Source: an uncultured Gammaproteobacteria bacterium (GTDB taxonomy: Bacteria > Pseudomonadota > Gammaproteobacteria > Pseudomonadales > Azotimanducaceae). From it: a DNA stretch of 37,840 bases. The first letter of the stretch is position 1; each line of letters starts with the position of its first letter. Location of the stretch: assembly GCA_913043815.1 (NCBI GenBank), contig CAJWNY010000022.1, positions 1 through 37,840 of the forward strand. Direction: 5' to 3'. Of the stretch, positions 1,295 through 3,796 are shown piece by piece. A program made the translations under genes and the position numbers. The notes below the pieces were generated by a model. The model saw nothing but the letters and a program-made list of their open reading frames with translations. It ran no database searches and was not told where the DNA came from.

Positions 1295-1783
1295 GTGCAG
1301 CAAGATAATAAACTGAGATATTTAGTGATAGGCAACGCAATGGCGGTGCTGTTGATAGGTCTCTTATCAGGAGTAATGCTTATCTTTTCATTGTTGGATG
1401 CAGTGACCTTGTGGCCATTTCCTGAGTGGAAAGTGACAATTCCTGGCTCAACCAGAGGCTGGCAGGCGGCGCACGTAGGTGGCATTTTGAATGGTGTGAT
1501 GATTGCTGGAGCGGCCTACTTAATGCAAACCCTAGAGCTATCTGGGCGCCGCGAGAAATGGGCAGGCTGGGGCATGATCATTACGGGTTGGGCCAATACA
1601 GTGTTTTACTGGGGCGGTAACTTTGCCGCTAACAGAGGGCTTTCGGTTGCGACTACGCCTTATGGCGAGGGTGACTTGGCTGGAGCGCTCGCATTTTTAG
1701 GTGGTGGTGCCGGAATGGTATTTACCTTCATAGCCGTATCAATATTTGCGCTGGCAGCATTCAAAAAAGCTAAAGCAAGTTAG
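1295..1783 (+). CDS. Styrene oxide isomerase-like membrane protein (StyC / hydroxylaminobenzene mutase family)
   Basis: This 162-residue protein has four predicted membrane helices (about 8-32, 60-80, 89-109, 132-157). From memory it aligns along its length with bacterial styrene oxide isomerase, which converts epoxides to aldehydes by Meinwald rearrangement using heme b at a trimer interface. Shared blocks are PGSxxGWxxAHxGxxLNG at 50-67, GWAN at 98-101 followed by FY, and NFxxNRGL at 109-116. The StyC heme ligand His58 corresponds to H60, Asn64 to N66 and Tyr103 to Y105. Asp95 is replaced by T97. Start choice: GGGGAG at 1283-1288 directly touches the GTG at 1289, whereas the in-frame GTG at 1295 has a normal six-base spacing, so I use 1295. 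Homology is strong. Substrate and exact reaction are open, and the family also contains hydroxylaminobenzene mutases. Confidence 0.75.
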   Translation: MQQDNKLRYLVIGNAMAVLLIGLLSGVMLIFSLLDAVTLWPFPEWKVTIPGSTRGWQAAHVGGILNGVMIAGAAYLMQTLELSGRREKWAGWGMIITGWANTVFYWGGNFAANRGLSVATTPYGEGDLAGALAFLGGGAGMVFTFIAVSIFALAAFKKAKAS

Positions 1784-1987: not shown

Positions 1988-3796
1988 GTGTCTAGTGAGA
2001 ATTCTGTTGTAAATGATTTGGGTTTTGATCCAGCAGCGTTGAGAGAAAAATACCGGGTTGAGAGAGATAAGCGCTTGCGCAGCGATGGCAGCGAGCAATA
2101 TCAAGAGGTTGTTGGAGACTTTTCCCACTACGTGGACGACCCCTATGTTGAATCAGGGTTCTCAAGAGCGCCGTTAGAAGACCAAGTAGATGTCATTGTA
2201 ATTGGTGGCGGGTTTGGTGGTCTGTTGTCTGGGGCGCGTTTGACTGAAGCGGGTGTGGGCAGTGTCCGTATTATCGAAAAAGGCGGCGACTTCGGCGGTA
2301 CTTGGTATTGGAACAGATATCCGGGCGCGGCCTGTGATGTGGAATCCTATGTGTATTTACCGCTGTGCGAAGAGTTGAACTTTGTTCCCAAAGAAAAATA
2401 TACCCACGCGCCGGAAATCCTAGCGCATAGCCGGGCGATTGGCGAAAAATTTAATCTTTACGAGCACGCTTGTTTCCAAACTGAAGTACAGGGTCTTGAG
2501 TGGAGTGAGGTCACAAAATTATGGACGGTGAAAACTAACAGAGGTGATCGTATGCGTTCGCGTTATGTAGTGATGGCCAATGGTCCGCTGAATCGACCTA
2601 AGCTGCCGGGTATTAAAGGTATTAGCGAATACAAGGGCCATACATTTCACACCAGTCGGTGGGACTACTCTTACACCGGCGGAGGCCCACAAGGTAACTT
2701 GACTGGCCTTAAAGGCAAGAAGGTTGGCGTGATTGGTACTGGTGCCACAGCTATTCAATGTGTGCCCCACTTGGCTAAAGGTGCTGATGAGCTTTATGTT
2801 TTTCAGAGAACGCCATCTTCTGTCGATGTTCGCGCAAACCGACCCACTGACCCAGTTTGGGCTGCGAGTCTAAAGCCTGGCTGGCAGCAAGTGCGTATGG
2901 ATAACTTTAATACCCTAGTTTCTGGCGGGTTTGCCGATGTCGACATGGTTAACGATGGTTGGACTGAGATCATTCGTAACCTAGGTTCAATGGTTAACTT
3001 TAAGGGGGGCGCGAGGCTTTCTCCTCAGGAAGTGGCAGAAAAAATGGAATTAGCGGATTTTCAGAAAATGGAGCAGGTACGCGCCAGGGCTGAAGAGTTG
3101 GTAAACGATCCTAATACCGCAGAGGCTTTGAAGCCCTATTATCGTCAGTTTTGTAAGCGGCCTTGTTTTAACGATGAATACTTAGATTCGTTTAATTTAC
3201 CGGGTGTGCATTTGGTTGATACTCAAGGCAGCGGCATCGACAAAATTACTGAGAAAGGAATTGTCGCTAATGGTGTAGAAATTGAGTTGGATTGCATCGT
3301 GTTTGCTACCGGCTTTGAAGTGGGTACCGAATATACTCGACGCTCTGGCTACGACTTAATTGGTCGCGATGGGTTGAGCCTAAAAGACAAGTGGCAGGAT
3401 GGCATATCTACGCTGCATGGTCTGCAAACGCGAGGCTTCCCTAACTGTTTTATTATCAGTAACGCGCAGTCTGGCTTTACCGTTAGTTTTCCTCACGCGA
3501 TGAATGAACAAGCCAAGCATGTTGCCTATATAATAAATCGCTGCGCTGAGGCAAATGCGGAAACCGTTGAAGTAGCGGCAGACGCTGAGGCTGCTTGGGT
3601 GCAGGAAATTGTTAAAATGTCGCGTCTTAGCGAGAGCTTTCAGGCCAGTTGTACGCCGGGCTATTACAATAATGAAGGCAAACCTAATCCTAAGAGCGTA
3701 CAAAATGGCTCTTATGGCGCAGGGCCAGTGAAGTTCTTTAAGGTGCTTGACGCCTGGCGCCAAGAAGGCACCCTGCAGGGTCTCGAGCTGAGGTAG
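1988..3796 (+). CDS. Type I Baeyer-Villiger monooxygenase (FAD/NADPH), long form
   Basis: This 602-residue flavoprotein should insert one oxygen atom next to a carbonyl, turning ketones into esters or lactones. The FAD Rossmann motif G73-x-G75-x-x-G78 is followed by the GGTWYWNRYPG stretch from 103 and C116-D117. The BVMO fingerprint YKGHTFHTSRWD is at 215-226, the NADPH Rossmann motif GTGATA at 250-255, and the second fingerprint FATGFE at 439-444. R391 in CKRPCF matches the catalytic arginine of phenylacetone monooxygenase. A ~65-residue N-terminal extension makes it longer than phenylacetone monooxygenase and close in length to cyclopentadecanone-type enzymes. That fits bulky or cyclic ketones but does not prove them. 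The start is GTG with AGGAG at 1973-1977. The 204-base gap after the isomerase-like gene leaves co-transcription possible but not shown. A terminator follows. Confidence 0.93.
   Translation: MSSENSVVNDLGFDPAALREKYRVERDKRLRSDGSEQYQEVVGDFSHYVDDPYVESGFSRAPLEDQVDVIVIGGGFGGLLSGARLTEAGVGSVRIIEKGGDFGGTWYWNRYPGAACDVESYVYLPLCEELNFVPKEKYTHAPEILAHSRAIGEKFNLYEHACFQTEVQGLEWSEVTKLWTVKTNRGDRMRSRYVVMANGPLNRPKLPGIKGISEYKGHTFHTSRWDYSYTGGGPQGNLTGLKGKKVGVIGTGATAIQCVPHLAKGADELYVFQRTPSSVDVRANRPTDPVWAASLKPGWQQVRMDNFNTLVSGGFADVDMVNDGWTEIIRNLGSMVNFKGGARLSPQEVAEKMELADFQKMEQVRARAEELVNDPNTAEALKPYYRQFCKRPCFNDEYLDSFNLPGVHLVDTQGSGIDKITEKGIVANGVEIELDCIVFATGFEVGTEYTRRSGYDLIGRDGLSLKDKWQDGISTLHGLQTRGFPNCFIISNAQSGFTVSFPHAMNEQAKHVAYIINRCAEANAETVEVAADAEAAWVQEIVKMSRLSESFQASCTPGYYNNEGKPNPKSVQNGSYGAGPVKFFKVLDAWRQEGTLQGLELR

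Follow-up and report, generated by a model that had tools for sequence, protein, structure and literature searches.

Results

An isomerase gene and its upstream neighbour

The stretch of DNA analysed here, the window, is the 37,840-nucleotide contig CAJWNY010000022.1 of an uncultured gammaproteobacterium (assembly GCA_913043815.1), whose draft genome has 2.85 Mb and is about 90% complete. Close to its start two genes follow each other on the forward strand. The first (396-1280) encodes a 294-residue protein of the Pfam family PF10118 ('Metal_hydrol', 'predicted metal-dependent hydrolase'), and the second (1295-1783) a four-helix membrane protein of 162 residues that resembles styrene oxide isomerase (SOI, StyC) and is proposed to be a heme-b isomerase; the PF10118 gene ends 14 nt ahead of the GTG at 1295. 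Here, I show that PF10118 is a conserved partner of the isomerase outside the StyC clade; the pairing suggests that uncultured bacteria have an oxidation pathway of two steps that has yet to be described.

The isomerase reading frame is open from GTG-1289 (1289-1783, +), which would give 164 residues. The start at GTG-1295 appears preferable, because a ribosome-binding-like GGGGAG (1284-1289, +) lies 5 nt before it and because the first methionine of a relative (L020) aligns to codon 3 of the 164-residue frame. Residue numbers refer to the 162-residue form; those of the longer form are two higher.

The protein has the SOI fold and is a true relative of styrene oxide isomerase, outside StyC proper. 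A search with the StyC profile (NF045734), as proposed in an earlier note on the isomerase gene, returned a match at 105.7 bits (E 2.2e-30), though under the equivalog cut-off of 150 bits; elsewhere, five members of the StyC clade score 166.9-250.3 bits and three PF10118-paired members 105.1-138.2 bits. The same note had claimed that the heme-ligand and catalytic positions of the family are kept, and alignments bear this out. The equivalents of His58, Asn64, Asn99 and Tyr103 of the enzyme PtSOI are all present, namely H60, the candidate heme ligand (codon 1472-1474, +; H62 in the longer frame), N66 (1490-1492, +; N68), N101 (1595-1597, +; N103) and Y105 (1607-1609, +; Y107). Within the window clade, N101 is kept in 30 of 30 rows and Y105 in 29, the remaining row having an X. 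According to PMC11374702, H58 of PtSOI holds ferric heme b, the N64A and D95A variants are impaired and N99A and Y103A are dead.

Pairing of the isomerase and PF10118 across genomes

Two samples of the family were used. A named set of 80 loci was found with the pattern [ARG]AH[VST]G[GP][IVA][LTM]NG, 80 of 96 confirmed relatives being kept; together with the window these 81 loci hold 84 isomerase-like frames. Searches of the class and the order, in which the isomerase family is rare (6 of 369 and 33 of 390 genomes, respectively), supplied a pattern-free set of 34 rows from the 38 loci L115-L152, with one locus for most genomes. Left out of it were L115 (the window), L124 and L125 (genomes already covered) and L123 (a weak partial match), and six of its rows repeat named loci (L116, L117, L118, L126, L129 and L136).

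Counting upstream partners only, a PF10118 gene stands directly upstream on the same strand in 59 of the 84 frames and is missing there in 25. When the frames are placed on a tree of 120 rows, 59 of the 69 outside the StyC clade are paired in this way, and none of the 15 inside. The ten unpaired frames outside the clade are those of L047, L050, L051, L062 (first copy), L067, L074, L078, L103, L104 (second copy) and L109. Among the unpaired named loci, only L062 has a PF10118 frame in its stretch, where it accompanies the second isomerase copy; a 295-residue frame upstream of the isomerase in L047 was rejected as a PF10118 gene, its translation having no Pfam match, and is probably an overlapping frame. 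In the pattern-free set, 13 of 34 rows have a PF10118 frame nearby, on the same strand and no more than 1.5 kb away (13 of the 25 outside the StyC clade, 0 of the 9 inside). Moreover, four remote rows (L120, L140, L143 and L151) have the two genes in reversed order, an argument for conservation of the adjacency as such. Among relatives, the pair is present in 12 of 16 isomerase-bearing genomes; these 16 carry one or two PF10118 genes in 14 cases, none in G026 and eleven in G057.

The pair is adjacent, co-inherited and under purifying selection. The two proteins have correlated pairwise distances, with r 0.89 for a set of 26 pairs and r 0.80 for a set of 30 (0 of 1000 permutations in each case). 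In the PF10118 tree, a single group of 26 (support 94) unites the partners of the window clade. Of the 19 unpaired rows, i.e. those with no isomerase-like frame within 1.5 kb, 15 fall in a separate group and the other four lie among remote paired rows. Hence the suggestion that the window gene belongs to an orphan branch of the family stands only in part: the gene does lie outside the StyC clade, yet it is no orphan, for its conserved partner is directly upstream, just beyond the gene to which the earlier note was confined.

No conserved third gene was seen: among the clusters found in at least 5 loci, none beyond the two genes occurs in more than 10 paired loci. The recurring clusters near the pair comprise SDR, ABC-transporter, ligase, sulfatase and glyoxalase types, named by the look of their sequences, in some cases with further backing, and several of the clusters are probably overlapping non-coding frames. 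A full-text literature search, with most subscription journals outside it, found no published description of the pair and no text joining 'metal-dependent hydrolase' with 'styrene oxide isomerase'.

The named loci closest to the window come from drafts titled uncultured Gammaproteobacteria, K189A clade and HTCC2089. The pair also occurs in two drafts titled Klebsiella pneumoniae (L071 and L073), whose place in the tree is among drafts titled Gammaproteobacteria; their species label is probably wrong. One genus (g303 of family f205; genomes G741, G571, G759 and G776) has as many as seven isomerase-like matches in a genome, which suggests expansion to several substrates, and in G020 a second isomerase-like copy with internal stops (C119:11995-12464) exists besides an open paired copy elsewhere. 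At 49-68 of the window, a C run followed by an A run may mark a low-quality assembly end.

Active-site residues and Asp95

The perfect counts of the H58 and N64 equivalents in the named set are built in, because the search pattern contains these residues; for the same reason the pattern-free set is the fair test of conservation. There, all 34 rows have the heme-ligand histidine, even remote ones that lack Tyr103, and 33 have the asparagine equivalent to N64.

The position of PtSOI D95 is occupied in the window by T97 (codon 1583-1585, +; T99 in the longer frame), with threonine in 29 of 30 rows of its clade. This had been described as an altered active-site aspartate, a view that the distribution of the residue contradicts. 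D95 occurs in 14 of the 84 frames of the named set, none of them paired with PF10118, and the D95 rows of the 120-row tree (23 of 23, including two references) make up one StyC subclade, with D95 in no other row. In addition, PMC12502698 reports that RoSOI1 retains whole-cell activity as D94A and loses it as H57A; D94 would be the counterpart of PtSOI D95, if H57 is taken as that of H58. Since D95 is limited to one StyC subclade and RoSOI1 D94A stays active, T97 says little about the substrate, and loss of the aspartate can be ruled out as a sign of altered function. Judging by these alignments, Asp95 is better read as an addition specific to StyC.

The PF10118 protein

The partner of the window isomerase matches PF10118 at 152 bits (E 3e-44; cut-off 33.2), and all 45 aligned partners match the family at E 0.1 or better. 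Residue conservation was assessed over 85 rows, 81 of them different. On the forward strand, the candidate metal ligands are E50 (543-545; glutamate in 84 of 85 rows, one gap), E80 and H83 of a QExxH motif (630-644, with Q79), E132 (789-791), and H164, E168 and H171 of an HxxEExxH motif (885-908, with E167); both motifs and E132 are invariant in 85 of 85 rows. As a sequence pattern only, E50, E80xxH83, E132, H164 and E168xxH171 reproduce the seven-ligand order E, ExxH, E, H(x3)ExxH of AurF-type enzymes. The structural neighbours of the protein model (pLDDT 92.7) are ferritin-like dimetal proteins. A further residue, H200 (993-995), may mark the paired subfamily: in the two main paired clades every partner has histidine there (26 of 26 and 30 of 30), against only 7 of 19 unpaired rows.

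Phylogeny of the isomerase

The remote rows of the 120-row tree sit on long branches; a second tree retains 90 of the 120 rows, without long branches and near-copies. Two references from the PDB are labelled StyA in the trees. In the 90-row tree, the bootstrap of which had not settled, the larger paired clade and StyC come together (99/94), and the 26-row window clade stands apart (99/97). With this grouping and with paired remote members, the trees favour an order in which pairing with PF10118 would be older than pairing with StyA. Against this order, a topology that joins the two paired clades was not rejected (AU p 0.296), and PF10118 pairing as a proven ancestral state had to be set aside.

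Styrene genes and genomic contexts of the StyC clade

The earlier note was right that the setting lacks styrene monooxygenase genes: neither StyA nor StyB is found among the annotated neighbours, and no StyA was detected at E up to 1e-20 in the draft genome, at its completeness of about 90%. Over 58 genomes, this one included, a StyA match was obtained in only one, below the cut-off. StyA is present in the stretch of 11 of the 24 non-reference StyC-clade rows of the 120-row tree. In L106 it scores 707.8 bits (cut-off 550), and its surroundings include a flavin reductase, an OmpW-family gene and an aldehyde dehydrogenase. Annotated arrangements resembling this one are found on plasmids of Phaeobacter and Marinibacterium, and a plasmid of Pseudomonas VLB120 has styA-styB-styC. 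In Sphaerotilus natans (L113:6986-9578), an isomerase of the StyC clade has a soluble diiron monooxygenase subunit (PF02332) on one side and a Fer2/FAD reductase on the other. Wherever a neighbour could be named, then, the StyC branch adjoins an oxygenase able to make epoxides.

A viral origin of the family was discarded, with no relative in two viral scans, and so was a plasmid origin: matches occur in 7 plasmid records, and the three inspected are sty operons. As regards a relation to hydroxylaminobenzene mutase, no match of that name appeared when Pfam and NCBIfam were scanned with E up to 1, the presence of such models there being unchecked, and the literature search found no text naming both that mutase and styrene oxide isomerase.

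Directly after the pair, the window encodes a Baeyer-Villiger-type flavin monooxygenase (1988-3796; 823 bits with the PtlE/pentalenolactone D synthase model, cut-off 1100). A ketone or aldehyde product of the pair would be a fitting substrate for such an enzyme, but 16 stretches of relatives (6 to 20 kb, from 15 genomes) yielded no homologue, in a search that did not take in the named loci.

Discussion

A putative oxygenase-isomerase module

The simplest reading is that the pair follows the logic of StyA/StyB and StyC with a different oxygenase. The PF10118 protein would be a ferritin-like diiron oxygenase, rather than a hydrolase, with iron held by AurF-type ligands (E50, E80, H83, E132, H164, E168 and H171), and it would use O2 to oxygenate a hydrophobic substrate, most simply by epoxidation of an alkene or arene. 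The isomerase would form a membrane-bound trimer with ferric heme b placed between subunits through H60, and heme-catalysed rearrangement of the oxygenated product would follow the O2 step. I infer, with about even confidence, that the window gene is one half of such a module, made of a PF10118 diiron oxygenase and a heme isomerase that acts on what the oxygenase makes, perhaps an epoxide.

Some results weigh against this. The AurF profile (PF11583) reaches 16.5 bits on the window partner (E 0.005), below its gathering cut-off of 29.6, and picks up 12 of 45 partners with E values no higher than 0.1, the lowest being 2.1e-4; a comparison of PF10118 with AurF by hhalign, using shallow profiles of eight members, gave a probability of 0.7%. 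Sequence profiles therefore do not establish a kinship of PF10118 with AurF.

The main functional rival gives the SOI-like protein a non-catalytic part, that of a heme subunit or membrane anchor by which the diiron protein is held or supplied with electrons. It would explain why no reductase is conserved with the pair, and it accords with the replacement of Asn99 by phenylalanine in 32 of 59 paired rows and with remote members that lose Tyr103 and keep the heme histidine, a trend to be predicted if isomerisation counts for less than the binding of heme. A redox role, however, would have no need of Tyr103 and Asn99, while the window clade keeps the equivalents of H58, N64, N99 and Y103 together, and StyC is an isomerase; I regard this explanation as unlikely.

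The main chemical rival concerns the substrate. If PF10118 were an AurF-like N-oxygenase, the isomerase could rearrange a hydroxylamine, N-oxide or nitroso product on its heme iron. The proposed ligand set, three histidines and four carboxylates, is indeed of the N-oxygenase type and largely unique to it (PMC12101540), and benzylamine nitrogen binds the heme iron of PtSOI, as stated in PMC11374702. Yet no amine-related cluster stood out among those in at least 5 loci, as named by sequence look, the isomerase fold is known for opening epoxides, and the oxygenases that could be named beside StyC-branch isomerases are of families that act on alkenes or arenes, all of which leaves N-oxygenation rather improbable.

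That PF10118 is a hydrolase as named, the two genes being merely two steps of a degradation pathway, I consider quite improbable: the Pfam name and the catabolic look of the other, variable neighbours speak for it, whereas the seven invariant metal-type residues would fit a dimetal carboxylate site, the neighbours of the predicted model are redox dimetal proteins, and the literature search found no account of the function of PF10118 or COG3687, the former being named in one paper on an unrelated topic and the latter in none. An ordinary styrene oxide isomerase with its monooxygenase elsewhere in the genome is very unlikely in spite of the StyC profile match and the catalytic residues kept, given the score under the cut-off, the position outside the StyC clade and the lack of StyA in the genome at the threshold and completeness given above.

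Extending the proposed module to the whole family leads to a more tentative scenario, possible and on the doubtful side, in which PF10118 represents a hitherto unrecognised family of diiron oxygenases that use O2, many of them to make epoxides, and the heme isomerase fold evolved as their partner. The pair, which has up to now been met mostly in uncultured bacteria, would be an ancestral module for epoxidation and isomerisation, and the styrene operon would have arisen by exchange of PF10118 for the flavoprotein StyA and by fixation of Asp95.

Styrene oxide isomerase has been described as structurally unique and pointed to for turning epoxides into carbonyl compounds (PMC11374702). A family on the same scaffold tied to another oxygenase-like gene offers natural sequence variants, and the partner gene suggests a class of chemistry for it. 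Conversely, the pairing is a route to the function of PF10118, and provides a testable hypothesis for the assembly of the styrene pathway.

Comparison with known systems

Among diiron enzymes, DnfA has ligands that include H209/E213/H216 (PMC9478400), and the seven ligands proposed for PF10118 come in the same order with similar spacing. The CylC-type enzymes have the motifs QExxH and HxxDExxH (PMC12101540), the former identical in PF10118 and the latter resembling its HxxEExxH. The helical bundle of the PF10118 model also appears similar to those of AurF, CmlI, DnfA and the CylC type; unlike them, PF10118 constitutes a Pfam family of its own, with a weak or absent relation at the level of sequence profiles, and one of its subfamilies has an isomerase as neighbour.

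The window isomerase is 27-28% identical to PtSOI (8pnu; 8pnu/8pnv are its structures). It differs from StyC in having Trp in place of Leu104, in lacking Asp95, in its separate clade and in its partner, PF10118 instead of StyA/StyB. In several cases the styrene operon has aldehyde dehydrogenase and OmpW-family genes nearby, whereas the pair has no conserved third gene, and the styrene oxygenase is a two-component flavoprotein, its place being taken here by the PF10118 protein. What the two systems would have in common is the arrangement itself, an oxygenase gene adjoining the gene of a heme epoxide isomerase.
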